Under the pieces are notes generated by a model that did not search any database, was not told where the DNA came from, and saw only the letters and a list, made by a program, of their open reading frames with translations. Positions 2,926 through 29,871 of a stretch of DNA of 30,167 nt are shown one piece after another. Origin of the DNA: a virus. The position numbers and the translations under genes are program-made. How positions within the stretch are numbered: position 1 is the stretch's first letter; each line of letters begins with the position of its first letter. The DNA is taken from positions 1 to 30,167 of IMG/VR virus record IMGVR_UViG_3300029266_000174, one strand, 5' to 3'.

Positions 2926-2956
2926 CAAATATATAAAACTTTTTTAAATTAACAAA
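2926..2956 (-). promoter_or_regulatory. Host-type (Bacteroidota) promoter for the GIY-YIG gene
   Basis: On the minus strand TTTG (2956-2953) is followed by exactly 19 bases and TATATTTG (2933-2926), a full match to the Bacteroidota housekeeping pattern TTTG-N19-TAnnTTTG. It lies 15 bases upstream of the ATG at 2911. Its -33 box is the reverse complement of part of the plus-strand late motif at 2951-2956, so the two promoters overlap. Confidence 0.75.
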
Positions 2957-2981
2957 ATAGGTAAAAAAGTATTGTATATAT
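2951..2981 (+). promoter_or_regulatory. Phage late promoter motif, copy A (portal operon)
   Basis: AACAAA at 2951-2956, 14 bases, then ATTGT at 2971-2975 and an A/T run leading directly into ATG at 2982. The arrangement is shared at identical spacing with 18285, 20427, 28543 and 29841. If ATTGT is the -10 region, the expected transcription start falls at or next to the A of the start codon. Confidence 0.7.
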
Positions 2982-3338
2982 ATGATAATACTACAAAGCT
3001 CTACAAATGCACAAACTTTTAGTTTTATTCCTAGAGAATACACCCAAGGGACTACATATTCTATTAAAATAAAAGATGAAAGTTCAAACTCAGAGGCTTT
3101 TACAGCTACAACTACAACATTTACAGCTGTAGATTATTATTATCAATATAGTGCTTCTTTTGTTTTAAACAGTAAAACACTAAAACAAAATACAATGTAT
3201 ATGTTAGAAATTAAAGATGGAAATAATGTTGTTTTTAAAGACAAAGTATTCTGCACAAATCAAAACGTTACAACTTATAGTGTAAATAATTCTGCTTATA
3301 CAAGCAACACAATAGCTAATGACTTTATAGTATTATAA
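2982..3338 (+). CDS. Small beta-rich protein at the head of the portal operon
   Basis: 118 residues, Thr/Ser/Asn/Tyr-rich, with alternating hydrophobic and polar residues that suggest an immunoglobulin-like or other beta sandwich (for example TYSIKIKDESS and MYMLEIKDGNNVVFKDKVF). No signal peptide or catalytic motif is visible. The stop overlaps the portal start by one base (TAATG), so the two are translationally coupled. It begins directly after late motif A with no leader. The position before the portal suggests a virion protein or an assembly factor, but I do not recognise the family. Confidence 0.6.
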   Translation: MIILQSSTNAQTFSFIPREYTQGTTYSIKIKDESSNSEAFTATTTTFTAVDYYYQYSASFVLNSKTLKQNTMYMLEIKDGNNVVFKDKVFCTNQNVTTYSVNNSAYTSNTIANDFIVL

Positions 3339-5092
3339 TGGCAAGAAATAACAACAAAAAAGACGGAGGTCTACACATAGTAAATTTATCTACCTATAAC
3401 AGACCTGAAATATCTGAGGACAAGAGAAAAGAATGGGTCGCTTATGGATCTGATAATAATTACTATCAATATTTAATTGAACTTTTTACTAATAGTGCAA
3501 CTAATAACGCTATTATTGGAGGGGTTTCTTCAATGATATATGGCAAAGGATTAGACGCTTTAGATAGTTCTACTAAGACAGAAGAATATGCAGCAATGAG
3601 GTCTATATTTTCTAACGATTCATTAAGAAAAGTTTCTTTAGATTTAAAATTATTAGGAGAAGCAAGCTTTCAAGTTACTTATAAAGATAAAAAAGTATAT
3701 AAAGCAGAGCATTTCCCACGTCAAACTCTACGAGCAGAGAAATGTAATGATGAAGGAAAAATTGAAGCTTACTATTATTCTCCAGACTGGGCAAATATTA
3801 AACCATCTGACAAGCCTAAAAGAATTGCATACTTTGGATATGGAAATGGAACTGAGCCAGAAATAAAAATAGCTAAAAGATACATTTCAGGATATGATTA
3901 TTATTGTCCTGTAGATTATCAAGGGGGTCTAGCTTATGCAGAACTAGAATCAGAAGTAAGTGATTACCTTATAAACGATGTACAAAATGGCTTCAGCGGA
4001 ACAAAAGTTGTAAACTTTAACAACGGAATCCCAGACCAAGACCAACAGCTAAGTATTAAGAACGATGTAATGCGTAAGCTTACAGGTTCACGAGGAGAAA
4101 AGGTTATTATAGCATTTAACAACAATGCCGAAAGCAAGACTACAATAGATGACGTTCCTTTAAATGATGCTCCTGCTCATTATGAGTATTTATCTACGGA
4201 ATGTTCTAATAAGTTAATGGTTGCTCATAGAATTACGTCTCCTTTACTTTTAGGAATAAGAACAGGTAACAATGGACTTGGAAATAATGCTGATGAAATC
4301 AAGACAGCATCCTTGTTATTTAACAACGTTACTATAAGACCGTATCAAGATCTTTTAATAGACTGTATTGACGATATATTAGCTTTTAATAGTATATCAT
4401 TAAAATTATATTTTAAGACCTTACAGCCGCTTGAATTCATTGATACAGATAACGCAATAACAGACGAAGCAAGAGAAGAAGAAACTGGAGTAAAACTTTC
4501 TAAGGAAGAATCTTTTAACGATGATGAAGCTTTTGATTTATTGAATGAATTAGGAGAAGAAGAAAACCTTGACGAATGGGAATTAGTAGATAAGCGTGAA
4601 GTAGATTATGAGCAAGAAGAAGCATTAGATAAAATGATAGGTTTAGCTTCAACAGGTTCTGCAAGACCAAACGCTAAAAGTGAACAAGATGGAGAATCAG
4701 ATGGATTTAGGTTTAAGGTTCGTTATCAATATGCACCTTTAAGAACTTCTGCAAATAGCAGGGACTTTTGTAAAAAAATGGTTAGTGCTGCGAAAATATA
4801 TAGAAAAGAAGATATTTTGCAAATGGGACAGCAACCTGTCAATAAAGGATGGGGTCCAAAGGGCGATACAGCAACCTATTCCATCTGGGAGTTTAAAGGC
4901 GGTGGAAGCTGCCATCATTTTTGGATGCGTAAAACCTATATGGCTAAAGGAGTTACTCCAGATGCTAAAAATCCTAATGCAGAAGTAAGCGTAAATAAAG
5001 CAAAGAAAGAAGGATTTACTCCTAAAAAAAACGAATCAAACGTGGCTAAACGACCAACGGATATGCCTAAAAAAGGTTTTGTAAATAAATAA
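3338..5092 (+). CDS. Portal protein with an additional C-terminal domain
   Basis: 584 residues. The N-terminal ~370 look like an HK97-type portal: an early WVAYGSDNNYYQYLIELF segment, NSATNNAIIGGVSSMIYGKGL, a clip/stem-like central part, and a region at about 280-350 where gp6/portal-like proteins carry long helices (CSNKLMVAHRITSPLLLGI). After a very acidic linker (about 375-440) comes a second domain at about 455-545 with FRFKVRYQYAPLRTS, DFCKKMVSAAKIYRKEDI and GGGSCHHFWMRKTYM, which I associate with portal C-termini in Bacteroidota phages. The tail is basic. Location beside the connector and under a late promoter supports the role. What the second domain does is unknown. Confidence 0.8.
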   Translation: MARNNNKKDGGLHIVNLSTYNRPEISEDKRKEWVAYGSDNNYYQYLIELFTNSATNNAIIGGVSSMIYGKGLDALDSSTKTEEYAAMRSIFSNDSLRKVSLDLKLLGEASFQVTYKDKKVYKAEHFPRQTLRAEKCNDEGKIEAYYYSPDWANIKPSDKPKRIAYFGYGNGTEPEIKIAKRYISGYDYYCPVDYQGGLAYAELESEVSDYLINDVQNGFSGTKVVNFNNGIPDQDQQLSIKNDVMRKLTGSRGEKVIIAFNNNAESKTTIDDVPLNDAPAHYEYLSTECSNKLMVAHRITSPLLLGIRTGNNGLGNNADEIKTASLLFNNVTIRPYQDLLIDCIDDILAFNSISLKLYFKTLQPLEFIDTDNAITDEAREEETGVKLSKEESFNDDEAFDLLNELGEEENLDEWELVDKREVDYEQEEALDKMIGLASTGSARPNAKSEQDGESDGFRFKVRYQYAPLRTSANSRDFCKKMVSAAKIYRKEDILQMGQQPVNKGWGPKGDTATYSIWEFKGGGSCHHFWMRKTYMAKGVTPDAKNPNAEVSVNKAKKEGFTPKKNESNVAKRPTDMPKKGFVNK

Positions 5093-5095
5093 GAA

Positions 5096-5596
5096 ATGGC
5101 AGAAGCATTATTAATAGGAAGAGCAGACGTAGTGAAATTTACTGCAATGAACGGAAATGTAGACACGGACAAATTTATTCAGTACATTAAAATTGCTCAA
5201 GATATACATATACAGAATTATTTAGGGACAGACCTATTTAAAAAAATACAGGTTTTAATAATTGCTGGGCAATTAGCGAACAACTATTTAAACCTTGTAA
5301 ACGTACACATAAAACCTATGCTGATACATTGGGCTATGGTTGAGTATTTACCCTTTGCAGCTTATACAATCGCTAATAAAGGAGTATTTAAGCATTCTAG
5401 TGAAAACGCTGAAAATGTAAGTAAGGAAGAAGTAGATTTTTTAATTGAGAAAGAAAGGGATTTAGCCCAATATTATACTGATAGGTTTATTTCTTATATG
5501 ACTTTTAATAATAGTTTATTTCCAGAATATAATTCAAATAGTAATGATGATATAAATCCTTCTTATGATTCAAATTTTTCTGGATGGGTATTATAA
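5096..5596 (+). CDS. Putative head-tail connector (gp6-like)
   Basis: 166 residues, largely helical, starting three bases after the portal stop. A segment AQDIHIQNYLGTDLFKKIQ followed by a second helical block (HIKPMLIHWAMVEYLPFAAY) resembles head-tail connector/adaptor proteins of the gp6 type seen in Bacteroidota phages. The C-terminus is a low-complexity Asn/Ser/Asp-rich tail. Position directly after the portal is where connector proteins are normally found. Assignment is by resemblance and synteny only. Confidence 0.6.
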   Translation: MAEALLIGRADVVKFTAMNGNVDTDKFIQYIKIAQDIHIQNYLGTDLFKKIQVLIIAGQLANNYLNLVNVHIKPMLIHWAMVEYLPFAAYTIANKGVFKHSSENAENVSKEEVDFLIEKERDLAQYYTDRFISYMTFNNSLFPEYNSNSNDDINPSYDSNFSGWVL

Positions 5597-5715
5597 AAAG
5601 AAAAAAAGTAGGAAGCTACAAACCAAAACAAGATAACGTTATTAAATTAACTAAATATCTTAAAAATATAAATAACAAAATTGCTAAAAAGGTGTTGTAT
5701 AGATATGGCGAATAA
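5584..5715 (+). CDS. Small basic protein
   Basis: 43 residues from ATG 5584, overlapping the end of the connector gene by 13 bases in another frame and ending 11 bases into the next small gene. It is strongly basic (MGIIKRKKVGSYKP, then KNINNKIAKKVLYRYGE), with no cysteine or membrane segment. Overlaps at both ends leave no free sequence between 5096 and 5979, which argues for a real gene. The stretch coding VGSYK shares 16 nucleotides with the scaffold-like gene near base 14. Function unknown. Confidence 0.55.
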   Translation: MGIIKRKKVGSYKPKQDNVIKLTKYLKNINNKIAKKVLYRYGE

Positions 5716-5812
5716 TATTAACTGGGGTGAGTCTTATTGTTGTTCTTGGTGGGGAGATATTCTTAATCAAGAAACTATAAATATTGATTCAAAACCTGAA
5801 AATTTAAATTAA
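5705..5812 (+). CDS. Small Trp/Cys-containing protein (SWWG motif)
   Basis: 35 residues from ATG 5705, with INWGESYCCSWWGDI near the N-terminus and a polar C-terminus. The next gene carries the same SWWGN/D motif (PLSWWGNVNEANGW), so the pair looks like small paralogues. The stop shares a base with the next ATG (TAATG), indicating coupled translation. It lies between connector and fibre genes and is probably a small virion or tail protein. No family function is known to me. Confidence 0.55.
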   Translation: MANNINWGESYCCSWWGDILNQETINIDSKPENLN

Positions 5813-5979
5813 TGGGTTTCGGTTCAATTTATCCATTAAGTTGGTGGGGCAATGTAAACGAAGCAAATGGCTGGGGCATAGTTTACCCTTTTGATGCAGA
5901 TGGTTCTTTACTTACAGTAGACGCAACATTAATACTAGCAGATACAACACAATATAAAGCAGATGCAACAGAATACTAA
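5812..5979 (+). CDS. Small structural protein, SWWG family
   Basis: 55 residues: MGFGSIYPLSWWGNVNEANG then WGIVYPFDADG and a C-terminal part with the repeated ADxTxY/ADATEY pattern (VDATLILADTTQYKADATEY). It resembles short proteins I associate with flavobacterial and marine phages, next to tail-fibre genes. It overlaps the preceding gene by one base and lies 11 bases before the fibre gene. Role unknown, probably a minor tail or fibre-associated component. Confidence 0.6.
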   Translation: MGFGSIYPLSWWGNVNEANGWGIVYPFDADGSLLTVDATLILADTTQYKADATEY

Positions 5980-5990
5980 AATAAAATAAA

Positions 5991-6791
5991 ATGGCTAAAC
6001 AAACGGTAAATATTGGTACAATAGCAAACGATGGTACAGGCGACCAGTTACGGGATGCCTTTGATAAACTCAATGATAATTGCGATGAAATTTATGGCAA
6101 TAATTTTGTAACTGAATTAATGCTTAACGACAACATTGTTGGAGCAGCTGAATTGAAAGTAACAGGTAATGGAACTGATGGTCAGATTTTAAAAACTGAT
6201 GGTGACGGCACATTTTCTTGGATTAATAATGATGTAGGAGATATTACTGGAGTTACTGCCGGAACGGGTTTAACTGGAGGAGGAGATGCTGGCGCAGTAA
6301 CATTAAATGTTATCGGTGGAACTGGTATAACTGCAAACGCTAATGATGTAGCAATCACATCTGGAGGCGTTGGAACTACTCAATTAGCGGGAAGCTCTGT
6401 CACGACCGCCAAAATAAATAATGATTCTATCACTCACGACAAACTAGCTGCACGTTTTACGGCTGAAGTTGCTATAAGTACAAGAACAGGAACAGTCAAT
6501 TATGACTGTGCAACTGCTTCATCATTTAAATTAAGTGGAGATTTAACTGGAGCTTATACTATAAACTTAACTAATTACAAAAAAGGTCAAGTAATAACAA
6601 TCTATCCTTTAAAAGCTCAATCGGTCACCTTAACGGCTGGGACAGGAACAGAAGTTTTCAATAAACTTAGTGCTGTTGATTACGACAATACAGTATCTAG
6701 TATTTTACAAATTGAGTGTGTTGATGACCAAGACGCAAACCCAGTATTTTTCTATTCAGTTGCAACTTTTGCAGCAGATTCTACAATTTAA
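5991..6791 (+). CDS. Tail fibre-like structural protein
   Basis: 266 residues. The N-terminus MAKQTVNIGTIANDGTGDQ followed by a DAFDKLNDNCDEIY segment is a common opening of marine phage virion proteins. A Gly/Thr-rich beta-repeat middle follows (GVTAGTGLTGGGDAGAVTL and GTGITANANDVAI), then a TTAKINNDSITHDKLA spacer typical of phage fibres, and a beta-rich C-terminal domain (about 150-266). The Gly/Thr repeats fit a trimeric fibre. It is followed by the glycine-rich adhesin, so the two may form one receptor-binding apparatus. Function is inferred from repeats and position. Confidence 0.7.
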   Translation: MAKQTVNIGTIANDGTGDQLRDAFDKLNDNCDEIYGNNFVTELMLNDNIVGAAELKVTGNGTDGQILKTDGDGTFSWINNDVGDITGVTAGTGLTGGGDAGAVTLNVIGGTGITANANDVAITSGGVGTTQLAGSSVTTAKINNDSITHDKLAARFTAEVAISTRTGTVNYDCATASSFKLSGDLTGAYTINLTNYKKGQVITIYPLKAQSVTLTAGTGTEVFNKLSAVDYDNTVSSILQIECVDDQDANPVFFYSVATFAADSTI

Positions 6792-6801
6792 AAATTAAAA
6801 T

Positions 6802-8514
6802 ATGTTAAGTAAAAGAATACTTTCTTTAATAGCCGTAGCTACAGGTATAGATATTGATTATTTAGTTGTTGCTGGTGGTGGCGGTGGTGGTTCAGCAAGG
6901 GGAGCATCGGGTTCTGCAGGGGGTGCAGGCGAGTTTTTATCTCAAACATCTACTTCTGTAGAATTAGACACAAACATTTCTTTAACTGTTGGAGCAGGAG
7001 CAGCAGGAGGACCAGGAAGCCAAAATGCTCCTGGGACTCAAGGAAATAATAGCAATTTTATAATACTTACTAGAGGAGGAGGTTTTGGTCAATGTAGTTC
7101 ATTTTCTGGATTACCTGGCGCAGGTGGTTCTGGTGGTGGAGGAGATGCGGGTAACACGTCTGGAGGAGCTTCAACGGCTGTTAGTCCGGGAGTAGGAAAT
7201 GCTGGTGGAAATTCTGGTTCTAATGGTCAACGTTACGCTTCCGCAGGTGGCGGAGGAGCTGGTTCTGTAGGCGGAAACTCCAGCGATGCATTAGGTGGAG
7301 GAGATGGTGGTACTGGATTACAAAATTCTATTACCGGAACTAACTTATTTTATGCTGCAGGTGGTGGAGGTGGTCTTTATCAAGGCACAAATGTAGGTAT
7401 AGGAGGATCAGGAATAGGAGGTTCTTCATCTGCTTCAGGAACCGCATCTGCTGGAGTTACAAACACAGGATCTGGAGGTGGTGGAGGAAGTATTGCTACA
7501 AACGGCACTATCTTTGGTGGTGGAAATGGAGCCTCTGGAATAGTAGTAATTAAATACCCTAAAACACATAAAATAAATATTCCCAATAGTATAGGATATA
7601 CAGTACTTCAAAACGTAGGCGATTTTAAAATAAGAAAATTAATTAGTGGAACTGGAAACATTCAATTTACTCCAATTCAAAGTCAAATGGACGTAATTTG
7701 TTTAGTTGTTGCAGGTGGTGGAGGTTCTGGGGGTGCAAGTCATTATGCAGGTACATCAGGAGGTGGAGGCGCTGGAGGATATATAACAGATAATAGACCT
7801 GCCGATGTTAATGAAGATATTATTTTAACTATTGGCTCAGGCGGTGCTCTTGGACAAGGCGGTGGAGGTAGTGCAAATTCATTTAGAGGTAATAAAGGAA
7901 ACGATTCTGTTTTTGGTAACATAATATCATCGGGCGGAGGATATGGCGGAGCAGGAACAGACCAAAGCGCTGAAGCTGAGGGAAGCGAAGGGGGTTCTGG
8001 AGGTGGTTCTGGAGCTAGGCAAGTTTCTATGAGTAACTCAGGAACTGGAAACAGGCCAGCAACTTCTCCATCACAAGGTAATAACGGAGGTGTATCTTTT
8101 GGATCTTTCTCTGGAAGTCCAGGTAGATTTGGAGGAGGTGGAGGTGGTTCATCTTCAGCGGGTGCAAATGCTTCAGCTTCTTCGTCTGGAAATGGTGGAG
8201 CAGCGACAACAAACAATATAACTGGCTCTAACGTAGATTATGCCAAAGGTGGAAACGCTCCCTCGTCACTTAATACTCAGGCAAACAATGCAGCCGCAAA
8301 CACAGGGAATGGATCTGATGGCTCAAAAGCTCTTAACAGTGGCAATACTGACTTGAATGGGGCTAATGGTGGTTCTGGAATAGTAGTTTTAAAATATCCT
8401 AACACCCATTCTTTGACAATACCAAACACAATAGGCTTCACACATCTTTCAAATGTTGGAAACTTTAAAATAACAAAATTCACTAGTGGAACTGGACTTA
8501 TTAAATTTACTTAA
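6802..8514 (+). CDS. Glycine-rich tail-tip adhesin with two tandem domains
   Basis: 570 residues made of two glycine-rich units (about 19-290 and 291-570). Each begins with a (L/V)VVAGGGG motif (IDYLVVAGGGGGG and ICLVVAGGGGSGG), continues in long GGGG/GGSG/GNGG runs and closes with GIVV(I/L)KYP, an IPNxIG(Y/F)T segment, a VG(D/N)FKI segment and SGTGxIxFT. This is the architecture of polyglycine-rich adhesins in which loops form the receptor-binding surface. It follows a fibre gene and probably carries host specificity. Four of the 11 GATC sites of the genome lie here, which GGA-TCN Gly-Ser codons explain. Minus-strand Pro-rich frames here are shadows. Confidence 0.75.
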   Translation: MLSKRILSLIAVATGIDIDYLVVAGGGGGGSARGASGSAGGAGEFLSQTSTSVELDTNISLTVGAGAAGGPGSQNAPGTQGNNSNFIILTRGGGFGQCSSFSGLPGAGGSGGGGDAGNTSGGASTAVSPGVGNAGGNSGSNGQRYASAGGGGAGSVGGNSSDALGGGDGGTGLQNSITGTNLFYAAGGGGGLYQGTNVGIGGSGIGGSSSASGTASAGVTNTGSGGGGGSIATNGTIFGGGNGASGIVVIKYPKTHKINIPNSIGYTVLQNVGDFKIRKLISGTGNIQFTPIQSQMDVICLVVAGGGGSGGASHYAGTSGGGGAGGYITDNRPADVNEDIILTIGSGGALGQGGGGSANSFRGNKGNDSVFGNIISSGGGYGGAGTDQSAEAEGSEGGSGGGSGARQVSMSNSGTGNRPATSPSQGNNGGVSFGSFSGSPGRFGGGGGGSSSAGANASASSSGNGGAATTNNITGSNVDYAKGGNAPSSLNTQANNAAANTGNGSDGSKALNSGNTDLNGANGGSGIVVLKYPNTHSLTIPNTIGFTHLSNVGNFKITKFTSGTGLIKFT

Positions 8515-18315: not shown

Positions 18316-18334
18316 GTATCATTAATGAAATTAA

Positions 18335-18580: not shown

Positions 18581-18581
18581 T

Positions 18582-20389: not shown

Positions 20390-20420
20390 AAGGGGTTACA
20401 TAGATATGTAACCCTTTTTC
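20390..20420 (+). terminator. Terminator of the moron-like cassette
   Basis: GGGTTACAT (20393-20401) pairs with ATGTAACCC (20406-20414) around AGAT, flanked by A and followed by a run of T. A perfect 9-bp stem extends by A-T pairs. It separates the cassette from the late promoter at 20427, so tail genes are not read from the cassette promoter. Confidence 0.9.
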
Positions 20421-20426
20421 TATTTA

Positions 20427-20457
20427 TACAAATCAAAGGTTTTTTTATTGTTATAAT
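20427..20457 (+). promoter_or_regulatory. Phage late promoter motif, copy D (tail operon)
   Basis: TACAAA at 20427-20432, 14 bases, ATTGT at 20447-20451 followed by TATAAT, then ATG at 20458, 11 bases after the A of ATTG. This copy has T in the first position of the upstream box; the rest matches the others in spacing. It lies directly behind the cassette terminator. Confidence 0.7.
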
Positions 20458-21120: not shown

Positions 21121-21200
21121 AATTTCACGAATGTTTTATGTATTTAGCATTTGAAAAAGAGAAGAACCAATTAGAAGCAAAATTAATAAAGAATAGATGA
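20931..21200 (+). CDS. Tail assembly chaperone, -1 frame extension (gpGT-like)
   Basis: The -1 frame relative to the 20458 gene. An ATG at 20931 is available, but the probable use is a shift at the T-run, giving a fusion of about 247 residues (163 from frame 0 plus about 84). The extension has a compact domain-like sequence (GKKWGWYQSIYGLAKGDVRR and KLKFHECFMYLAFEKEKNQL). Its stop overlaps the next ATG (21197) by ATGA, while the frame-0 stop at 21120 would leave 76 empty bases, which supports the fusion as the coupled product. Confidence 0.7.
   Translation: MYVFFLEFKRRVTENYPELFEQGNTEGADYGAATNFGKKWGWYQSIYGLAKGDVRRFEHITKLKFHECFMYLAFEKEKNQLEAKLIKNR
20938..20947 (+). other. Slippery run of ten T, -1 frameshift site
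   Basis: Ten consecutive T read in frame 0 as TTT TTT TTT T. It offers several T TTT TTT positions for a -1 slip, and the RNA polymerase could also slip here. Frame 0 is open before and after it, and the -1 frame is open downstream to 21200. Confidence 0.65.
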
Positions 21201-21652
21201 CAGGATTTTATAATGTAACGAAAAAAATAAAGGATGCACTTAATGCAGAACCGTTTGTTAATACTGTTTCTTTTGGCTCATTAGATGATATTGATTTAAA
21301 TAAGCAAACTATATTTCCATTGTCTCATATAATAGTAAACAATTGCAATGTAGACACTAATATAATGATATTTAATATTAGCATTATTTCTATGGATATT
21401 GTAGACGAAAGCAAAGATGTAGTGACAGATATATTTGTAGGTAATGATAACGAACAGGATGTTTTAAATACTCAGTTAGAGGTAATTAATAGAGTTGTTG
21501 CATTACTACAAAGAGGAGATTTATATAAAGACTTATTTCAGATAGATGGTGCTGTAGGATGTGAGCCGTTTGTTGATAGATTTGAGAACAAGCTAGCAGG
21601 CTGGGCTGCTTCATTCGATGTAATAGTACAAAACGATATGACTGTATGCTAA
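21197..21652 (+). CDS. Putative tail completion / terminator protein
   Basis: 151 residues, mixed alpha/beta. The segments KKIKDALNAEPFVNTVSFGS, HIIVNNCNVDTNIMIFNISI and VGCEPFVDRFENKLAGWAAS are hallmarks that I associate with short tail proteins next to the HK97 gp10-like gene in related phages. It follows the chaperone by ATGA overlap and ends 7 bases into the next gene. Tail tube terminators are of this size and place, but the assignment is by synteny. Confidence 0.5.
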   Translation: MTGFYNVTKKIKDALNAEPFVNTVSFGSLDDIDLNKQTIFPLSHIIVNNCNVDTNIMIFNISIISMDIVDESKDVVTDIFVGNDNEQDVLNTQLEVINRVVALLQRGDLYKDLFQIDGAVGCEPFVDRFENKLAGWAASFDVIVQNDMTVC

Positions 21653-22152
21653 CAAATGTAAATTCAGAGTTACTAAAGTTTAAAAAGTTTGTTTCACAGC
21701 AATCAAGGAGTAGGCTAACTAAGGCTAAAAAGAACGTTTCTAGGGGGCTTTATAAGAGATTGGATGGTGTATTAAAAGTAAGTCCTAATTCGTTTGAATT
21801 AAGCTGGGATTTAGGGTATGGAGAATTTCAAGACAAAGGTGTAAGCGGTACTGAAAAGAAGTACAATACTCCTTATAGTTTTAAATCTAAAATGCCTCCA
21901 GTAAAACCATTAGCTGATTGGGCAAAAGCTAAGGGTCTTAAATTAAGGGACTCTAAAGGTAGATTTCAAAAGGGTGGTTATATGACTTTAGGTTTTTTAA
22001 TAGCAAGAAGCATACAGAAAAAAGGATTAAAGCCTAGCCTATTCTTTACTAAACCATTTGAGCAAGGATTTAAGAAACTACCAGACGAACTATTAAAAGC
22101 ATACGGATTAGATGTAGAAGAGTTTTTAAAATTTACTTTAAAGAAAAAATAA
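21646..22152 (+). CDS. HK97 gp10-like tail completion protein
   Basis: 168 residues, basic. The N-terminal helix (SRLTKAKKNVSRGLYKRLDG) followed by SFELSWDLGYGEFQDKG, a Pro-rich loop with MPPVKPLADWAKAKGLKLRD, and a C-terminal IARSIQKKGLKPSLFFTKPF segment are the typical layout of the HK97 gp10/tail-component family, which joins head and tail or completes the tail. It overlaps the preceding gene by 7 bases and ends one base before the next ATG. Good resemblance, no search made. Confidence 0.65.
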   Translation: MLTNVNSELLKFKKFVSQQSRSRLTKAKKNVSRGLYKRLDGVLKVSPNSFELSWDLGYGEFQDKGVSGTEKKYNTPYSFKSKMPPVKPLADWAKAKGLKLRDSKGRFQKGGYMTLGFLIARSIQKKGLKPSLFFTKPFEQGFKKLPDELLKAYGLDVEEFLKFTLKKK

Positions 22153-22153
22153 T

Positions 22154-23662
22154 ATGAGTACAAAAATAAATGTAAGAAGTCCCTTCTTTTTAAACCTTAC
22201 AGCTCCAGTCATATCGCTAGGAACTTTTACTTGTACAACGGCAGGACTTACAAATTTTTCTGTGGATAGTTCTGGTTTTATAACAAACCCCCAGTTATTA
22301 GTTGGTACTATTGTAGGTCAAACAGCTACCGCATTTCCCCTTAATACGACAGGAAGTTCAATTACAAGGAGCGTTACTTATACAATATCAATTCCTACAG
22401 GTTACTCAAATTTAAATAATTCAACCATAGATTGTGTTAAAACTTTTGCACAACCTACAAGACCTTCTAATGAAAACCCTAGCGTAAATAATAACTGCCC
22501 GACCTTTGCAGGAACTATTCCTAATTCAAGTGGTTCAGCAAGTACATCAATAGCTTTGTCTAGTGGATCTTCACCTTTTTTTACTCGTGGAAGTGGTGCT
22601 CCAATTAGTTCGTATGAAATTGAAAAAACTCCAAGTAATGCCTCAGTAGATGCGGTTTTAACTGGAACTGCTCCGAGTCAAACTTTAACTATTTCAAGTT
22701 CTATTAATTGTTCTTTTGCGACTTTTATAGTTATAGCTAGACAGTCCTCAGATGCTTGTACTGCGATATCTAATTCATTTACTTTTGCCTCTGCTAATTG
22801 TGGGGCTTATGATTGTGACGATGCTGCTATAACAGGCGGCAATATTGAAAAAGATGGAACGGTAAACAAGGGAATAATAACTAGAGGCACTTTAAACGCT
22901 GTAAGATATGATGGTTCAGATATTACAACTTCTTTAAATGCAGGCGCAAATAATTCAGGGTCAGCAGTAAATAAGACAATAACATATAGAATAAATATAC
23001 CTAGTGGATATAGTAATTCAGGGACTTTTGATTGTAATGTAGTTTATTCTCAACCATCGTCTGCTACTCTTCCTACTTTTAATTGTGCTCAAGCTCAAAT
23101 AACAACTCCCTTTATTTCTGAACAGGGTTCAATTCAAAACCCTACTACTAAAGTTGGGGTCGGAACTTACGTTAGTCATACTCCAGCAGGATTTGCAGAA
23201 GTCTCAACAAATACAGTTAGAACAATAGTATTCACTATTACACCCCCTTCAAGCGGATATTCAAATTCAGGAGGCAGTAATATAACTTGTAATGTAACCC
23301 AAACACAACCAGCAACGCAGACAAATTGCTTTGGTAATCTGTTTTTTATATCTAAAGAATCTTTTATTAACCCCCAAGACACTTGTCAGGCTGGGATGGT
23401 ATGGTCTACCACTGTTATAGTTACAAGTGAAAAAAGTTTTAGCACTATAATTTCTAGTATAGGAAACACAATTTGTTTTAGGCTTTCACCATTTAGAGGA
23501 GGCGATAAGTATTATGTTGTAAATTCAATTAGAGCAAACAGTATTGGAGGTACAAATAACAAATATTATTTAATTAAAATTAGTGATTATGGAGTTACAC
23601 AAGAAGTTGTTGAGTGGAATTGTTCAGGCGGTGGGTCTGGTTCAGGGGCTAGAATAGCATAA
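22154..23662 (+). CDS. Tail protein with three Cys-containing beta repeats
   Basis: 502 residues, Ser/Thr/Asn-rich with little charge. Three repeats share the core I/F-x-I-P-x-GYSN followed by a C and a QP(T/S/A) ending: around 75-105 (YTISIPTGYSNLNNSTIDC), 275-305 (YRINIPSGYSNSGTFDC) and 355-390 (FTITPPSSGYSNSGGSNITC). Each has one or two Cys. The C-terminal ~100 residues differ and end in a Gly/Ser-rich stretch. It looks like a surface-exposed tail component or a carbohydrate-binding adhesin. Position between tail completion and tail-tip genes agrees. I do not recognise the family. Confidence 0.55.
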   Translation: MSTKINVRSPFFLNLTAPVISLGTFTCTTAGLTNFSVDSSGFITNPQLLVGTIVGQTATAFPLNTTGSSITRSVTYTISIPTGYSNLNNSTIDCVKTFAQPTRPSNENPSVNNNCPTFAGTIPNSSGSASTSIALSSGSSPFFTRGSGAPISSYEIEKTPSNASVDAVLTGTAPSQTLTISSSINCSFATFIVIARQSSDACTAISNSFTFASANCGAYDCDDAAITGGNIEKDGTVNKGIITRGTLNAVRYDGSDITTSLNAGANNSGSAVNKTITYRINIPSGYSNSGTFDCNVVYSQPSSATLPTFNCAQAQITTPFISEQGSIQNPTTKVGVGTYVSHTPAGFAEVSTNTVRTIVFTITPPSSGYSNSGGSNITCNVTQTQPATQTNCFGNLFFISKESFINPQDTCQAGMVWSTTVIVTSEKSFSTIISSIGNTICFRLSPFRGGDKYYVVNSIRANSIGGTNNKYYLIKISDYGVTQEVVEWNCSGGGSGSGARIA

Positions 23663-23672
23663 TAAAAAAGAT

Positions 23673-24662
23673 ATGGCATTAAAAAAAATAGGTTTAAAAT
23701 TATATGTATATACAGGAACTTCAGGTTCTTATGCTTCTTCAGATTTAAAATACCAAATTGAAAAAGATAGGATTTCTAATCAAAATAATATAGTTGTAGA
23801 AATTGCTGAATTAGTAAAAGACTTTTTAGACAACAATTTTAACAATGATTATATATGTGCTACTAAATGGGTTTCAGCGGTTGTTGAGTTTTTTGATTCA
23901 GATACTGATGCAATATTTGAAACTAACGGAACTCAAGTATTTAACTACTTAGCTTTTGATGGTTACGGACATTTCCAAGAAGAAATAAACCCTGCTTTAA
24001 GTACTGATTTATTACAAACTAGCTTGAATATGTATTTGCCAGATGATACAGCTGGTAAGATTCCGATATTTTCCGAGGGTGTAGGTAAGATTATAATTGA
24101 TTCTGCTACAACTCAAATAACTGACAACGGAAATAGCAATCAAAAGATACAATATATAACAATACCTGCGAATAAAAGCACAGTTCAGATTTATGCTACA
24201 GACGATTCTACATTATTAAAGACAGTTACTATCAATAATGTATGTGAAAGAAAATTTATACCCTATAAAGTGAGCTTTGTGAATAAGCTTGGAGCATATC
24301 AAGATATATATTTCTTTAAAAAGACCACTGAAAGGTTTAATGTAACTGATGAAACCTATAAAAGGAACAATATAAATACCGCAACGGTTACTTATGGAAC
24401 TAACGATGGACAAAAACAACGTTATAATGTAAACGGTTCTACTAAAATCACTCTAAATACTGGTTATGTAAAGGAAGATTTCAATAGCGCACTAGAAGAA
24501 CTGTTCCTATCTGAGAACGCTTGGATTAGATGGGAGGGTAAAACGCTTCCTGTTATAATAACAAGCAAAGATATGACTATTAAAAGCGTATTAAACGACA
24601 AGTTAATTGATTATACAGTAGGTTTTGAGTTTGCCTTTAACAAGATAAACAATGTTCGTTAA
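23673..24662 (+). CDS. Tail structural protein
   Basis: 329 residues: MALKKIGLKLYVYTGTSGSY, a segment QNNIVVEIAELVKDFLDNNF, then QVFNYLAFDGYGHFQEEINP and a C-terminal domain with WIRWEGKTLPVIITSKDMTI. The order (mostly beta, one helix near 45-65) and position before a large tail protein are known to me from flavobacterial siphophages, without a defined function. It may be a distal tail or baseplate protein. The stop shares a base with the next ATG (TAATG). Confidence 0.55.
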   Translation: MALKKIGLKLYVYTGTSGSYASSDLKYQIEKDRISNQNNIVVEIAELVKDFLDNNFNNDYICATKWVSAVVEFFDSDTDAIFETNGTQVFNYLAFDGYGHFQEEINPALSTDLLQTSLNMYLPDDTAGKIPIFSEGVGKIIIDSATTQITDNGNSNQKIQYITIPANKSTVQIYATDDSTLLKTVTINNVCERKFIPYKVSFVNKLGAYQDIYFFKKTTERFNVTDETYKRNNINTATVTYGTNDGQKQRYNVNGSTKITLNTGYVKEDFNSALEELFLSENAWIRWEGKTLPVIITSKDMTIKSVLNDKLIDYTVGFEFAFNKINNVR

Positions 24663-26836
24663 TGACAGAACTACAATTATACATAGAGGGTCAAGAAGTA
24701 GAGCTACACGACAATGAAAGTGTAGTACTTAAACAAGCTTTACAAGATGTAAGAAGCTTAGATAAAGTTTTCACGGATTTTACTAGGACTTTTAACGTTC
24801 CTGCTTCTACAGTAAATAATAAAATTTTTAAGCACTTTTACAATTTTAATATCATTGGATTTGATGCAAGACACAAACAAAATGCAGAATTAAATATAAA
24901 TTATAAACCTTTTAAAACTGGCAAAATAAAGTTAGAAGGTGTTCAAATGAAAGATAACAAGCCTGTAAATTATAGGGTAACTTTCTATGGAAGTTTAGTT
25001 TCTTTAAAAGATATATTTTCTACTGATAAAATAAGCTCTTTAGATGGATTAAGTATTACCCTAGATTATACATCTGCTGGTATATCTAACCTTTTACAAA
25101 ACGGGGCAAACATAGTGTTAAACAGTGAAACAATTTCTAGAGGCTTTATAGCGCCTTTAATAACTCACACCGATAGATTATATTATAATTCAACACAGGA
25201 CACCGCAGGGACGTTTAATTTGCATCCTACTAGCACAAAGAAGGGCGTTGTTTGGAATCAATTAAAACCAGCGATTAAAGTTTACGCTATTATTAAGGCT
25301 ATTGAATTTAAATATAACATTAAATTTAGTGCTGATTTTTTTAGTTTAACAAATACTGCTTTTGACAATTTATATCTTTGGCTACATAAACAAAAGGGAG
25401 GAGTTTTTGATGTAGAAACAAGAAACCTAGTTGCTGTTTCAGGGTGGAGCAATATTCAAGGCTCATTAAATGGTGGAACTTTTACTCTTGATGCGTTTTT
25501 AAATGAATCTATACCAGCTGACGCAAATAGATTTCTTCAGTTAACTGTTGGAACGAGTAGTTCAGCAGAATATGAAATCATTGTTTATTACGATGAAGAG
25601 ATAATTCATAATTCAGAACATACTGGTGGGGCTGATATTATAAGGTTTCTAGACCAGTTTAGAATACAAAATCCTACAAGGATTAATGATGAATCTGTTT
25701 TAGATTCTGACAGAATACACGTAAAAATACTAAGTTCTTCAGCTGCGACTTTTGCTCTTTCAATGTCTGTAAGAGACTCTTCTCTTGACGGTTCAACTAA
25801 TACTGTTACTGCTCAAACTAGCAATGTAAATTCCACAGTAACTAAAATAGTAGCAACTGACCAGATGCCAGATATTGGTGTTATGGACTTCTTGACTGGG
25901 CTGTTTAAGATGTTCAATCTAACAGCTTTCTTTGAAGATGATGTTATTAAGGTTTTACCTTTAGATGATTTCTACGCAAGTAGTACTTCAACTTATGATA
26001 TCACAGAATATCTTGACAAAGCTAAATCAGAAGTTAATTCAGCAGTTCCATATAGTTCAATTAATTTTAGTTATAAAGAAGCTAAAAGTTTCTTTGCTGC
26101 AAATCATAAACAACAATTCAATCAAGATTGGGGCTCTTTAAAATATGAAGATTTAGGCTCTGCCGAAGGTTCAACATATACAGTCCAATTACCTTTTGAA
26201 AACCAAAAATTTGAAAGGTTAAAAAATTCAGGTGGAACGGCATTCACAACTATACAATGGGGGTTTTCTGTAGATATAAATCAAACTCCATATTTAGGCA
26301 AACCGTTGTTATTTTATGCAATGCGTGAAGATGATAGCTTTGGAGTTTTAAATCCAATATCTTATTTAGATAATGTTGGAGGAAATCAATCTACATTAAA
26401 CGCTTATTTTGTTCCAAGTAATTCCGTTGACCCTTTAACAAGTACCCAAACTTTAAATTTTGGCTCTGAGAAAAGTGAATATGCTAGAGTTAATTATGAT
26501 AAATCTTTATTTAGCACGTATTACAAAAACTATATAGTTGATACGTTTTCAGAAAACAGACGAATTAGCAAATTCAAAGCATACCTTCCTTTAAGTATTA
26601 TCTCAAAACTAAAGCTACAAGATAAAATAATTGTGTTTAATAATCTATATAAGATTAATACTATAAGCACCAATTTACAAAACGGATTATCAACGTTTGA
26701 ATTAATTAACGAGGTAACAAACTTCACAATTTCAGCACTTGCAAACCCACAAGACCAAGCAAGGACAATAGATGATGACTTTACAACTGCCGACAGTACA
26801 TTAGTAAGAGCTGATAATGCATTACAAAGAATATAA
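24662..26836 (+). CDS. Large tail-tip / baseplate protein
   Basis: 724 residues, the largest protein of the window. The N-terminal part has EVELHDNESVVLKQALQDVR, TDFTRTFNVPASTVNNKIF and YRVTFYGSLVSLKDIF, which fits a family of tail proteins seen in Bacteroidota phages. A central beta-rich part (about 250-400) has galectin-like or carbohydrate-binding features by eye (ADANRFLQLTVGTSSSAEYE), and the C-terminus returns to QDKIIVFNNLYKINTISTNL. Location between other tail genes and the tape measure supports a tail-tip hub or distal tail role. No catalytic motif is visible. Confidence 0.55.
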   Translation: MTELQLYIEGQEVELHDNESVVLKQALQDVRSLDKVFTDFTRTFNVPASTVNNKIFKHFYNFNIIGFDARHKQNAELNINYKPFKTGKIKLEGVQMKDNKPVNYRVTFYGSLVSLKDIFSTDKISSLDGLSITLDYTSAGISNLLQNGANIVLNSETISRGFIAPLITHTDRLYYNSTQDTAGTFNLHPTSTKKGVVWNQLKPAIKVYAIIKAIEFKYNIKFSADFFSLTNTAFDNLYLWLHKQKGGVFDVETRNLVAVSGWSNIQGSLNGGTFTLDAFLNESIPADANRFLQLTVGTSSSAEYEIIVYYDEEIIHNSEHTGGADIIRFLDQFRIQNPTRINDESVLDSDRIHVKILSSSAATFALSMSVRDSSLDGSTNTVTAQTSNVNSTVTKIVATDQMPDIGVMDFLTGLFKMFNLTAFFEDDVIKVLPLDDFYASSTSTYDITEYLDKAKSEVNSAVPYSSINFSYKEAKSFFAANHKQQFNQDWGSLKYEDLGSAEGSTYTVQLPFENQKFERLKNSGGTAFTTIQWGFSVDINQTPYLGKPLLFYAMREDDSFGVLNPISYLDNVGGNQSTLNAYFVPSNSVDPLTSTQTLNFGSEKSEYARVNYDKSLFSTYYKNYIVDTFSENRRISKFKAYLPLSIISKLKLQDKIIVFNNLYKINTISTNLQNGLSTFELINEVTNFTISALANPQDQARTIDDDFTTADSTLVRADNALQRI

Positions 26837-26838
26837 CT

Positions 26839-26985
26839 ATGGTAGAAAATATTTTAAAAATGTTAGAGATAGCAAAACGAGAAAAGAAAATAGGAGAGTT
26901 GACTCATATAGCATTGGGTAAACATAAGTTGCCTGACACTTTTAAAGAAGGATATAAAATGCTAAAACTTGAATTATGGCAGTAA
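26839..26985 (+). CDS. Small protein before the tape measure
   Basis: 48 residues (MVENILKMLEIAKREKKIGE then LTHIALGKHKLPDTFKEGYK), amphipathic helical with a Lys-rich centre. It starts 2 bases after the large tail protein and overlaps the tape measure start by 10 bases, so it fits the operon without free space. Possible assembly partner of the tape measure, but there is no recognisable motif. Too short for standard gene prediction. Confidence 0.55.
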   Translation: MVENILKMLEIAKREKKIGELTHIALGKHKLPDTFKEGYKMLKLELWQ

Positions 26986-28544
26986 AGAAAACTATTGAAA
27001 TAGAAGCTAATGTAGGGAAAGCTCAAAAAGACCTAAAGGGATTAGATAAAAGCTTACAGAAAGTTGATAAGGGTGTTGAAAATATTGGAGACTCGTCAAA
27101 AGAAACTAAAAAGGAAATGGGTGCTTTTGGAACTGCCATAGATAAAGCTACTGGAGGCGGTGTTACTGGTTTTAAGAATATGACCAAGTCTGTAAAAGGG
27201 GGTAATATAAGCTTAAAAGCTATGAAGGTGGCACTTATTGCAACTGGTATAGGTGCGTTCGTTGTTATTGTTGCAGCCCTAGCAAAGAATTTTAACAATA
27301 GTGAAGAAGGGGCTAACAAGCTAAGTAAGATGTTATCTCAAATTGGGGTAGTTGCAGGCAATATAACTGACATTTTTTATAGTTTAAGTCAAAGTGTATT
27401 TGCTCTTTTAACTGGAAATTTTGAAGAAGCTGGCAAGTCTTTTGAAGAAGCTACAAACCGAATGAAAAACTTTGGCGAGGAAACCAAAAAAGAAATAGCA
27501 TTACAAGGAGAATTAGCAGACAAGCAAGCGGAACTAAATAAAATAGAAAGACAATTAACTGTAGATAGAGCTGAAGCAAACAGGAAAAGAGCAGATTTAT
27601 TAGACAAAGCAGCAAACAAAGAGAAATTTACAGCAAAGCAAAGGATAGAATTTTTAGAAGAAGCCGCAAGAATAGATGAGGAAATAACAGATAAAGAAAT
27701 TCAAGCTGCAAAAACTAGACTTGAAATTAAACAACAAGAAAACAGTTTAAGTGAAAGCTCTGCTCAAGACCTTGCAGATGAAGCAGCATTGAAAGCTGAA
27801 TTAATTAATTTAGATACAGCTAGATTAAGGAAGGCTAAGACTGTAACTGCTCAGATTGTAGGTGCTATAAATGAAGAAAAGGCAGCTCATAAGGCATTAG
27901 TAGACCAAAGGCAAAAAGAAATTGACGGATTTCAAAAGCAAAGGGATTCTTTAGATAAGATATTAAGCGAGAGTGTAGGCAAACAAAAAGAAGTAACAAT
28001 AAAAACTGGGGATATAACTTTAGATTTAAAGAAACGAGCCGCAAAAGATGAAATAAAAATAGACAAACTTACATCTGACCAAAAATTATCAGTTGCTTCC
28101 AGCACTTTAGGCAACCTTGCGGGTCTTTTAGGCGAGAGTAGCTCAGCAGGAAAAGCGGCTGCAATAGCACAAACAACGATAGAGACTTATAAAGGTGCTC
28201 AATCTGCTTTTAGTTCCTTAGCTGGCATTCCGATTGTTGGGCCAGTACTGGGAGGTATAGCGGCAGCGGCAGCGGTTGCCTCGGGTATTGCAACAGTTAA
28301 ACAAATAACATCCGTTAAAACGCCCACAGGAAAGGGTGGTGGAGGTACTAGTATTTCAGCTCCAAGCAGAGCAACATCAACACCAGCTGCCTTTAACGTT
28401 GTAGGGGCAAGTGAAACAAACCAATTAGCACAATCTATAGGACAAGAAGAAAAACAGCCTGTAAAAGCATTTGTAGTGTCTAATGATGTGACTGACGCAC
28501 AAGCTTTAGATAGAAACATAGTAGAAAATGCATCAATAGGTTAA
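26976..28544 (+). CDS. Tape measure protein
   Basis: 522 residues. The N-terminal ~60 are coiled coil (NVGKAQKDLKGLDKSLQKVD), a membrane-type segment lies at about 84-101 (VALIATGIGAFVVIVAAL), a long Lys/Glu/Ala coiled coil runs at about 150-340 (KEIALQGELADKQAELNKIE), and a second hydrophobic stretch at about 415-440 (AGIPIVGPVLGGIAAAAAVA) is followed by a Gly/Ser/Pro-rich tail. This is the classic plan of a siphovirus tape measure, which sets tail length and enters the host envelope. A length of ~520 residues suggests a fairly short tail. It is the last gene of the tail operon. Confidence 0.85.
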   Translation: MAVKKTIEIEANVGKAQKDLKGLDKSLQKVDKGVENIGDSSKETKKEMGAFGTAIDKATGGGVTGFKNMTKSVKGGNISLKAMKVALIATGIGAFVVIVAALAKNFNNSEEGANKLSKMLSQIGVVAGNITDIFYSLSQSVFALLTGNFEEAGKSFEEATNRMKNFGEETKKEIALQGELADKQAELNKIERQLTVDRAEANRKRADLLDKAANKEKFTAKQRIEFLEEAARIDEEITDKEIQAAKTRLEIKQQENSLSESSAQDLADEAALKAELINLDTARLRKAKTVTAQIVGAINEEKAAHKALVDQRQKEIDGFQKQRDSLDKILSESVGKQKEVTIKTGDITLDLKKRAAKDEIKIDKLTSDQKLSVASSTLGNLAGLLGESSSAGKAAAIAQTTIETYKGAQSAFSSLAGIPIVGPVLGGIAAAAAVASGIATVKQITSVKTPTGKGGGGTSISAPSRATSTPAAFNVVGASETNQLAQSIGQEEKQPVKAFVVSNDVTDAQALDRNIVENASIG

Positions 28545-28573
28545 CAAAAACAATAAAAAAGTATTGTATTAAT
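28543..28573 (+). promoter_or_regulatory. Phage late promoter motif, copy B (head protease operon)
   Basis: AACAAA at 28543-28548, 14 bases, ATTGT at 28563-28567 and ATG at 28574, 11 bases after the A of ATTG. The flanking TAAAAAAGTATTGTAT is shared word for word with copy A near 2962-2977 except for one base. It begins before the last base of the tape measure stop. Confidence 0.72.
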
Positions 28574-29704
28574 ATGGATATAATTGAATTATTTATAGAT
28601 GAAGAGGATGAAGTTTCTGGAATAGAAGCTGTATCAATAGTTGAATCCCCTGCAATTGAAAGCGACTTTATTGCATTGAAGAACCAAGAGTTCAAATTTG
28701 CAGAAGTGAACAAAGAAAAGCGTATTCTTATGGGTGCAGCTTTGATTCCTAACAAACCTATCTATCGTAAAAACGAAGAAAACGAATACTATATATATTT
28801 CAGTAAATCAACAGTTAGAAAAGCTTCTGAGTTATTCTTTATCCGAGGCAATCAAAACAATTCTACACTAGAACACAACGTTCCTTTAACTGGTTTGACA
28901 GCTGTTGAAAGTTGGATAGTAGAAGATGAAAAAGACAAGACTAGATTCTATGATTTAGATGTACCTATTGGAACTTGGATGTTATCAATGAAAGTACAAA
29001 ATGATGACGTATGGAACGACTATGTTAAGACAGGAAAAGTGAAAGGATTTAGTATTGAAGGCTACTTTGCGGATAAGTTAGAAAGACCAAAAGATAAAGT
29101 AAAGGATGATTTATCTAAAAAAGACAAAACGTCTTTGGAATCAAAAATTATAGATGGACGTATAGCATACGATACAAAAGAAGAAGCTATAGCAATATCT
29201 AAAGAAATGGGGTGTAGTGGTTATCATTCGCATAATCTTGATGGTCAAGATTGGTTTATGCCTTGTGAATCACACGAATTAAATAAATTAAGTAAAGAAT
29301 TAATTGAAATTGAAGAAGCGGAAGCTCATTATTTATTGGGTCAAGTTACCGCTATTATTAAAAAAGATAAACGCACTAAGGCAGGCAAAAAAACTGAAAT
29401 GAAATCTTATAGTGATTACCCTAATTCAGTTAGTAACAACGCAAAAAGAGGTATTGCATTAAACGAAAAAGTGAATAATAAATGCGCAACACAAGTCGGA
29501 AAGATTAGAGCTCAACAATTAGCAAATGGTAAACCAATAAGTAAAGAGACTATAAAAAGAATGTTTAGCTATTTAAGCAGAGCTGAAGTTTATTACGAAA
29601 AAGGAGATACAGAAAGCTGTGGATATATATCTTTTTTACTATGGGGTGGTAAAAGCGCAAAGTCTTGGGCTGAATCTAAAATAAAAAGCTTAGAAAATGA
29701 ATAA
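28574..29704 (+). CDS. XkdF-like head maturation protease, three-domain
   Basis: 376 residues. Residues about 50-168 resemble XkdF-type prohead proteases: ALIPNKPIYRKNEENEYYIY, then His101 in LEHNVPL and Ser160 in VKGFSIEGYF as the likely catalytic pair. A middle unit at about 193-238 has GRIAYDTKEEAIAISKEMGC and GQDWFMPCESHE. The C-terminal unit at about 276-372 has YSDYPNSVSNNAKRG, KCATQVGKIRAQQLANG and CGYISFLLWGGKSAKSW, found in many phage head proteins. It lies before the scaffold and capsid genes, which it would process. It starts directly after late motif B. Confidence 0.75.
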   Translation: MDIIELFIDEEDEVSGIEAVSIVESPAIESDFIALKNQEFKFAEVNKEKRILMGAALIPNKPIYRKNEENEYYIYFSKSTVRKASELFFIRGNQNNSTLEHNVPLTGLTAVESWIVEDEKDKTRFYDLDVPIGTWMLSMKVQNDDVWNDYVKTGKVKGFSIEGYFADKLERPKDKVKDDLSKKDKTSLESKIIDGRIAYDTKEEAIAISKEMGCSGYHSHNLDGQDWFMPCESHELNKLSKELIEIEEAEAHYLLGQVTAIIKKDKRTKAGKKTEMKSYSDYPNSVSNNAKRGIALNEKVNNKCATQVGKIRAQQLANGKPISKETIKRMFSYLSRAEVYYEKGDTESCGYISFLLWGGKSAKSWAESKIKSLENE

Positions 29705-29834
29705 ATACGCACCTAGTCCAAAAAATGATAAAAGAGGATGCCTTTGTAAAGATGGGAAAAAATATTCTAGGAAGTGCTGTGATGGTAGCTTTCAAGCACA
29801 AGGGATTGGAAACATAATTAAAGAACCATCTTAA
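29697..29834 (+). CDS. Small Cys-rich protein
   Basis: 45 residues: MNKYAPSPKNDKRGCLCKDG, then KKYSRKCCDGSFQAQGIGNI. Four Cys in two pairs (CLC and CC) with Gly and basic residues; similar short proteins are familiar to me from marine phages in the head region. It overlaps the protease gene by 8 bases. A disulphide or metal-bound fold is likely. Function unknown. Confidence 0.65.
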   Translation: MNKYAPSPKNDKRGCLCKDGKKYSRKCCDGSFQAQGIGNIIKEPS

Positions 29835-29840
29835 AAATAT

Positions 29841-29871
29841 AACAAACTAATATTAATTTTATTGTATAAAT
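29841..29871 (+). promoter_or_regulatory. Phage late promoter motif, copy C (scaffold/capsid operon)
   Basis: AACAAA at 29841-29846, 14 bases, ATTGT at 29861-29865 and ATG at 29872, again 11 bases after the A of ATTG. It gives the scaffold-like, decoration and major capsid genes a promoter of their own in addition to read-through from copy B. Confidence 0.7.

Follow-up and report, generated by a model that had tools for sequence, protein, structure and literature searches.

Introduction

The phage late sigma factors T4 gp55 and SPO1 gp28 and gp33/34 redirect host RNA polymerase to virion genes. Here we describe a putative counterpart in IMG/VR virus record IMGVR_UViG_3300029266_000174, positions 1-30,167, one strand; this whole stretch of 30,167 nucleotides (nt) is referred to as the window. 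It contains a bipartite motif, WACAAA-N14-ATTGT (W, A or T), ahead of units of virion genes, and encodes a sigma factor of its own at 13257-13808. Our analysis leads us to conclude that six sites of this kind are very probably late promoters read by that sigma, which appears to be of the extracytoplasmic function (ECF) type.

ECF sigmas and the transcription of Bacteroidota are the closest described points of reference. In Mycobacterium tuberculosis (Mtb) sigma-L, Trp68 stacks on the flipped -11 base, and the -8 position is contacted via sigma2 and beta (PMC6372665); in E. coli RpoE, loop swaps redirected specificity (excerpt of PMC8103513). Flavobacterial and Bacteroides transcript maps contain few leaderless mRNAs (excerpts of PMC9723704, PMC7366714 and PMC6847099): mapped leaderless mRNAs are rare in F. 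psychrophilum (5.5%; PMC9723704), and about 3.7% of 5' untranslated regions in B. thetaiotaomicron are shorter than 10 nt (PMC7366714). One phage paper does remark that phage transcripts are often leaderless (excerpt of PMC5312081), so leaderless messages as such are no novelty for phages.

Results

The exact motif occurs five times in the window, always on the plus strand, beginning at 2951, 18285, 20427, 28543 and 29841, whereas dinucleotide shuffles of the window (n=100) gave a mean of 0.23 copies and a maximum of 2. The original prediction had named these five sites, with a T before each ATTG and a T plus A/T bases after it, and all of this is borne out; a scan of the whole window revealed no excess of the exact motif at random places. 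Its further statement that no other copy has this spacing is true of the exact motif but overlooks a sixth site, AACAAAATTGCTAAAAAGGTGTTGT at 5674-5698, which has a single mismatch. At five of the six sites an ATG stands exactly 6 nt past TTGT (2982, 5705, 20458, 28574 and 29872), the one at 5705 starting a 35-amino-acid (aa) open reading frame (ORF); in the terminase unit the ATG is farther away. The combined pattern ACA[AT]A-N14-[AG]TTGT-N6-ATG matches the window five times, against none in 300 shuffles. Looser descriptions discriminate less well: the core ACAA-N16-TTGT, a perfect inverted repeat with half-sites about two helical turns apart, gives six sites, where shuffles give 1.29 on average and 5 at most, and allowing up to two mismatches yields only mild enrichment in the window (94 matches, 63.2 expected).

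We predict a late promoter at each site, all on the plus strand. Ahead of the portal unit (2951-2975), AACAAA at 2951-2956 and a -10 TATTGT at 2970-2975 would place +1 at 2982, the A of the ATG. The predicted promoters of the tail unit (20427-20451; TACAAA, TATTGT at 20446-20451, +1 at 20458), the head protease (28543-28567; AACAAA, TATTGT at 28562-28567, +1 at 28574) and the scaffold/capsid unit (29841-29865; AACAAA, TATTGT at 29860-29865, +1 at 29872) follow the same plan, as does the sixth (5674-5698; AACAAA, TGTTGT at 5693-5698, +1 at 5705, the A of the ATG of the 35-aa ORF). The predicted terminase promoter (18285-18309; AACAAA, TATTGT at 18304-18309) would start at a G, 18316, and give a leadered message. 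Because the record has a terminal repeat of 141 bp, the scaffold/capsid unit that follows the site at 29841 crosses the record ends and resumes at position 1. The idea that the sites open the terminase, tail, protease, scaffold/capsid and portal units agrees with Pfam and PHROG matches to terminase, portal, S78 protease and tape measure; the "tail" gene at 20458 itself matches solely families of unknown function.

The motif is conserved in relatives. We compiled 236 related loci, the matches listed in three viral-contig scans with the sigma, terminase and portal proteins (best 80 each), which include overlapping stretches of some contigs; copies of the window (L001-L005) were excluded from relative counts. 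Distinct contexts or proteins were used for the counts of ATG distance, sigma class, initiator and strict consensus, and records for the counts of sites by residue 60. When the spacer k was allowed to vary from 6 to 26, ACAAA-Nk-ATTGT matched the loci 318 times at k=14 and 4-39 times at every other k. Among 265 distinct contexts, the ATG lay 6 nt past TTGT in 141, 7 nt in 26 and 8 nt in 7. The core ACAA-N16-TTGT was found upstream of 55 of 63 orthologues of the pre-portal gene, 56 of 74 of the terminase small subunit, 33 of 68 of the tail gene, 35 of 39 of the protease and 30 of 39 of the scaffold; the remaining 30 genes with usable upstreams had 0-3 matches apiece. Many tail sites that lack the strict core have TACATA or TACACA as box 1 and keep TATTGT. 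Slightly relaxed, the motif has three or more matches on the same strand in 33 of the 34 records, and in most records nearly all of its matches are on a single strand; the exception, G026, has one match and belongs to the third promoter class described below. No other conserved element was seen in the 40 nt upstream of the sites (at most 0.43 bits per column, -40 to -4).

Two approaches were abandoned: de novo counting of gapped pairs on pooled upstreams was dominated by shared coding sequence, and recurrent pentamers at ATG-6 were too noisy to be of use. In many related records an ORF of 34-72 aa follows the site that corresponds to the sixth promoter. Relatives also often have one more copy of the motif in the interval from protease to scaffold, ahead of an ORF of about 110-170 aa (G002, G003, G006, G007, G011, G015, G020, G021 and others); in several class I phages (see below) it reads ATTAT, and the window has no such copy.

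The window protein encoded at 13257-13808 (plus strand, 183 aa) is predicted to be an ECF-type sigma acting on host core RNA polymerase, with Arg60 in the loop that precedes the sigma2 helix and a recognition helix, ISWVSIFNTLK, at residues 148-158. It matches a PHROG sigma family (E 1.1e-5). All 35 aligned homologues match TIGR02985 and TIGR02937 at E<=0.01 (best 1e-11 and 4.2e-11), the window sigma scoring 32.9 and 28.2 bits, below the curated cut-offs of 126.4 and 42.9; Pfam sigma region 4 matches nine of the 35, and region 2 matches two. An AlphaFold2 model (mean predicted local distance difference test score 78, predicted template modelling score only 0.41) has sigma2 and sigma4 folds without sigma1.1 and sigma3, as two helical regions with a low-confidence linker between them. 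Foldseek ranked Mtb sigma-L first for this model, and its 14 matches at E<=0.001 were all ECF sigmas save one named 'RNA-guided transcription complex'; the sigma4 part lies within a root-mean-square deviation of 2.3 A of 2h27. Compared with Protein Data Bank (PDB) sequences, the trimmed alignment A2 found SigR first (E 0.0014), with other ECF sigmas among unrelated chains; profile A1 returned antibody-type chains only, an artefact. Tyr62, two positions past residue 60, is aligned with the SigR Trp in A2 and, by offset, with sigma-L Trp68.

Related genomes were expected to carry a homologous sigma as well, and 33 of 34 records of 20-35 kb, the window's included, do so, as do 18 of the 19 reached solely via terminase or portal loci. 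Twelve of the 34 came from the sigma scan itself, two more are contigs also in the sigma scan, and one is the window. The record without a sigma, G027, is 24.3 kb long against the usual 30 kb and may be incomplete; the G026 sigma is an intact ORF of 164 aa at 6737-7231. Searches of GenBank phages with the window and G026 sigmas, and of genome_contigs for a relative of the sigma, found none, gp33 of the cultured phage P12024S, to which we return below, being too distant for such searches.

Across these genomes the promoter changes with the sigma. Further scans with sigmas of other classes gave 184 distinct sigma sequences, 87 of them with a classified site; labelled by the majority site type, 54 are class I (ATTGT), nine class II (ATTAT) and 24 class III (CGTTAT). 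In G004, G013 and G014, and likewise in G035 and G036, ATTAT replaces ATTGT at matching late units with box 1 unaltered. In G026, TGCAAAA-N14-CGTTAT-N6-ATG precedes three late genes, and a fourth has the same box 2. Of 12 class III records, 11 have exactly four copies of CGTTAT-N6-ATG on a single strand, and the twelfth has one copy, with three more at 7-10 nt; 23 other records have 0-1 copies.

Residue 60 of the sigma follows these classes closely. All class I sigmas but one (53 of 54) have Arg there; none of the nine class II sigmas does, their residue being Lys, Gln or Glu (three each), and in class III it is Tyr, His or Asp. The lone class I exception, Asn, comes from phage G007, which has both kinds of site (two A, two G). 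At position 71, an aromatic residue is found in 53 of the 54 class I sigmas, and class II sigmas have Leu, Thr or Ala; only positions 26, 60 and 71 have maximal mutual information with class. The sigma4 helix starts ISWVSI in all nine class II sigmas and in every class I pattern printed, and box 1 is identical in both classes; in class III the helix is ISYYSLYNTY in 19 of 24, with close variants otherwise, and the sigma2 helix and box 1 also differ.

The variable base of box 2 was counted in whole or nearly whole records at sites with an ATG 6-8 nt downstream. It was G at 97 and A at 5 sites with R60, G at 2 and A at 2 with N60, and A at 17 and G at none with K60 or Q60; with E60 it was A at 11 and G at 2, both G in the chimeric-looking G034, giving A 28 and G 2 for K/Q/E60 records pooled. 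The sigma-less record had two G. A stricter consensus, applied to all loci with this helix and deduplicated, gave 150 G, 6 A, 2 T and 2 C for R60, one G for N60, and 18 A and one T for K/Q/E60. When columns 26, 60 and 71 are left out of the tree, class II requires three changes, of which starred branches force two. Three of 180 sigma columns (26, 60 and one not printed) have no residue common to classes I and II, against 4 of 5535 in 23 other genes (Fisher p 0.001); twelve genes were left out for too few rows, and a DnaA-C-like protein, tested separately, has no separating column among 131. G026 was excluded from the class I/II tests, and G034 is absent from the column control but included in the site counts by residue 60. 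These data support the conclusion that the motif and specificity residues of the sigma change together genome-wide, through few independent changes. Conservation, position, coherent genome-wide switching of the motif and covariation with sigma residues are established here from sequence. They support the original prediction that the phage sigma probably reads the motif, the change of the motif together with the sigma being the main evidence.

Some records stand apart. G034 (L469/L470, 39 kb) has two pre-portal and two scaffold genes, one set with class I and mixed sites like G011, and is probably a chimeric assembly. L461-L468, with record G047, have a further sigma class with the helix ISSSSIF and Lys60; their late promoters are apparently ACAAAA plus a TTAT-like box near the ATG. 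Class-II-like sigmas on short contigs (L054, L084, L426, L428, L443, L451 and others) showed no late site by the patterns used, so they could not serve as blind tests.

The terminase sites, where the motif lies 15-34 nt from the start codon, suggest where transcription begins. We compared 72 distinct leadered terminase contexts: a purine occupies the position 7 nt past the hexamer in 99% of them, and a T stands right before that position in 97%. Of 40 non-redundant representatives, 39 have the purine at the predicted +1 and 38 the T before it. At ATG-linked sites a T and the A of ATG occupy the same places as this T(-1) and purine(+1). Because the terminase sites keep the initiator apart from the start codon, we place +1 at the A of ATG, which puts TATTGT at -12 to -7 and the variable base at -8. 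Starts 9-12 nt past ATTGT, as originally proposed, would fall inside coding sequence in five units, and we predict a start 7 nt past TTGT instead. The mRNAs of the pre-portal gene, the small ORF, tail, protease and scaffold/capsid should then begin at AUG, and that of the terminase should not; its predicted leader is about 19-25 nt. Only the terminase unit keeps a leader, at 18316-18341 in the window and in relatives, with GAATAATCAA and ATCATTAATGA as recurring types. The terminase leaders have no convincing common fold, and single-sequence folds are weak.

We propose that the sigma directs host RNA polymerase to the six sites, and that its expression programme there would be late. The sigma4 helix would read box 1 (AACAAA/TACAAA) at about -31 to -26, sigma2 would read the -10 hexamer, and Arg60, by a putative contact with the base, would account for the G at -8. 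Transcription would begin 7 nt past the hexamer, at a purine with a T before it. This purine would coincide with the A of the start codon in five of the six units, giving mRNAs whose translation is predicted to be leaderless, and the terminase would keep its leader. We lean towards the further view that one element couples two switches, the capture of host polymerase by a phage ECF-type sigma and the start of most virion mRNAs at AUG.

The gene units and hairpins around these promoters are all on the plus strand. The portal unit (2982-5596) consists of an ORF at 2982-3338, the portal gene at 3338-5092 and an ORF at 5096-5596; the terminase unit (18335-19751) has a small ORF from 18335 or 18341 to 18580 and the large subunit at 18582-19751. 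The tail unit (20458-28544) runs to the tape measure gene at 26976-28544, and a family match identifies the head maturation protease (Peptidase_S78_2) at 28574-29704. Terminator-like hairpins, as pattern matches only, lie ahead of the portal unit (2482-2505) and the tail unit (20390-20417). Adjacent short ORFs at 5705-5812 and 5812-5979, the first beginning at the sixth promoter, contain similar Trp-rich stretches (CCSWWGD and PLSWWGN). Just ahead of the terminase promoter, 17646-18182 encodes a helix-turn-helix protein like DnaA domain IV (Bac_DnaA_C, E 1.7e-6, below the Pfam cut-off), a DnaA-C-like protein found in 34 of 35 records. A minus-strand ORF at 2513-2911, upstream of the portal promoter, matches the GIY-YIG nuclease domain (E 1.5e-4; 22.4 bits, cut-off 22.6) and is possibly a homing-type endonuclease.

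As originally proposed, the motif does not resemble the Bacteroidota housekeeping pattern. TTTG-N17-21-TAnnTTTG is at chance level in the window (2 matches, 1.84 expected) and absent from the late sites, except for one match on the minus strand, at 2926-2956, which shares bases with box 1 of the portal promoter; the late sites do not have TTTG at -33 with TAnnTTTG at -7. The host-type TANNTTTG is likewise at chance level in the window (48 matches, 48.9 expected).

Discussion

Could the inverted symmetry of the core mark an operator instead, bound by a dimeric activator or repressor, with transcription starting elsewhere? The perfect repeat with its two-turn spacing would suit such a protein, and the phage encodes a DnaA-C-like candidate just before the terminase site. 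The half-sites, however, change independently rather than symmetrically: class II has TTAT with ACAAA intact, not ATAA, and tail sites have TACATA or TACACA with TTGT intact. The single-strand bias of most records, the absence of any other conserved element in the 40 nt upstream and the lack of class-separating columns in the DnaA-like protein also speak against an operator, which we consider very improbable. A host ECF sigma reading the sites, with another role for the phage sigma, has a slimmer chance still, because the box-2 base tracks phage sigma residues across lineages, for which a host factor offers no reason. The fixed distance to the ATG (6 nt in 141 of the 265 contexts, and 7 or 8 nt in another 33) might point to a translation-initiation or other RNA element, and F. 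johnsoniae favours A-rich sequence before start codons (excerpt of PMC6847099). Yet terminase sites keep the motif at a distance from the start codon with the T/purine at the same place, the two boxes do not covary as a stem, and the element covaries with a sigma factor; we regard this explanation as extremely improbable.

A milder alternative retains the promoter but starts transcription a few nt upstream, so that late mRNAs would have short leaders. The 33 contexts with an ATG at 7-8 nt fit this, and exact start points vary at real promoters. At leadered sites, however, the T/purine stands exactly 7 nt past the hexamer, and neighbouring positions are less purine-constrained, except 4 nt past the hexamer (81%). 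We think short leaders unlikely, although they deserve to be taken seriously, and continue to favour late promoters read by the phage sigma with starts mostly at the A of ATG.

Several observations weigh against this preferred reading or parts of it. The strict motif is often missing before tail and terminase orthologues; site types are mixed in 7 of the loci with late gene starts; and R60 genomes contain five ATTAT sites, two of them in G011, one at the extra protease-scaffold promoter. No clear promoter could be defined for sigmas with the ISSSS helix. Position 26 covaries as strongly as 60 and 71, so that statistics alone do not single out R60, and independent origins of class II are few (2-3), with a paired test at p 0.5 and fewer than six pairs unable to reach 0.05. 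The VIA-align Z scores of the sigma model are middling (up to 9.9) and commonplace among helical proteins. An excerpt of PMC6372665 gives loop L3, which comes before the Trp, as a proposed specificity determinant for -11, not -8; the covarying base is -8 in our register, which means that the register or the contact may be wrong. All of the evidence is computational, and binding, start points and initiation are predictions.

A phage sigma that reads late promoters is of a known kind. What appears to be new, within the searches made, is that the sigma is of the ECF type, that it occurs in Bacteroidota-type phages, that classes of promoter track it and that these are placed mostly for leaderless messages; searches of openly licensed literature turned up, among the matches listed, no title or abstract opening on this motif or these sigmas. 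The host phylum of the window phage, presumably Bacteroidota, is taken from its relatives. The terminase of Flavobacterium phage Fpv5 is 51% identical to that of the window, and a scan of Fpv5 with the hidden Markov model (HMM) of the sigma family gave no clear sigma (best E 0.016). Our analysis suggests, from genomes alone, a late-transcription system for a large, mostly uncultured phage group. Its three promoter classes, paired with three sigma classes, amount to a code that can be tested (the base at -8 against residue 60, box 1 against the sigma4 helix) and, if the model is true, the family offers a natural series of changes in sigma-promoter specificity, with G at -8 accompanying a single residue, Arg60; the late programme would also move to leaderless translation in hosts where such mRNAs are rare. 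The motif is also of use in annotation, where it fixes the limits of units and the start codons throughout the family.

Compared with T4 gp55 and the SPO1 sigmas, the window system would use the ECF subtype in another host phylum, with a near-leaderless promoter distance and no co-activator identified; like a phage-sigma late system, it has promoters that change together with the sigma, in few independent changes. The Bacteroidota housekeeping promoter (-33 TTTG / -7 TAnnTTTG; excerpts of PMC7366714 and PMC6847099) is likewise AT-rich, with no Shine-Dalgarno expected downstream. ECF (group IV) sigmas such as Mtb sigma-L, E. coli sigma-E and Bacteroidota TIGR02985 resemble the window sigma in sigma2-sigma4 layout and fold, in a loop before a sigma2 aromatic near the specificity residue, and in their promoters, which have two boxes at fixed spacing and an initiator at a fixed distance, as do our sites if the predicted start is right; the window family differs in being phage-encoded and aimed at virion genes. 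The cultured Nonlabens phage P12024S/L (Inhavirus) has, as read from its sequence, the same architecture as the window phage. The P12024S portal is 36% identical to that of the window, and its gp33, annotated as sigma-70 region 2, matches the family HMM (E 4.9e-7) at 19% identity to the window sigma over the aligned part. ACAAA-N14-CGTTAA occurs five times in P12024S against 0.04 expected, and CGTTA(A/C)TA-N4-ATG six times against 0.03. P12024S with its host, Persicivirga/Nonlabens sp. IMCC12024, is an existing cultured pair that makes the predictions testable. Its -10, CGTTAA, is unlike the TATTGT of the window; the CGTTA shared with class III resembles the CGT box of the F. psychrophilum ECF motif (excerpt of PMC9723704), whereas classes I and II have TATT(G/A)T in its place.

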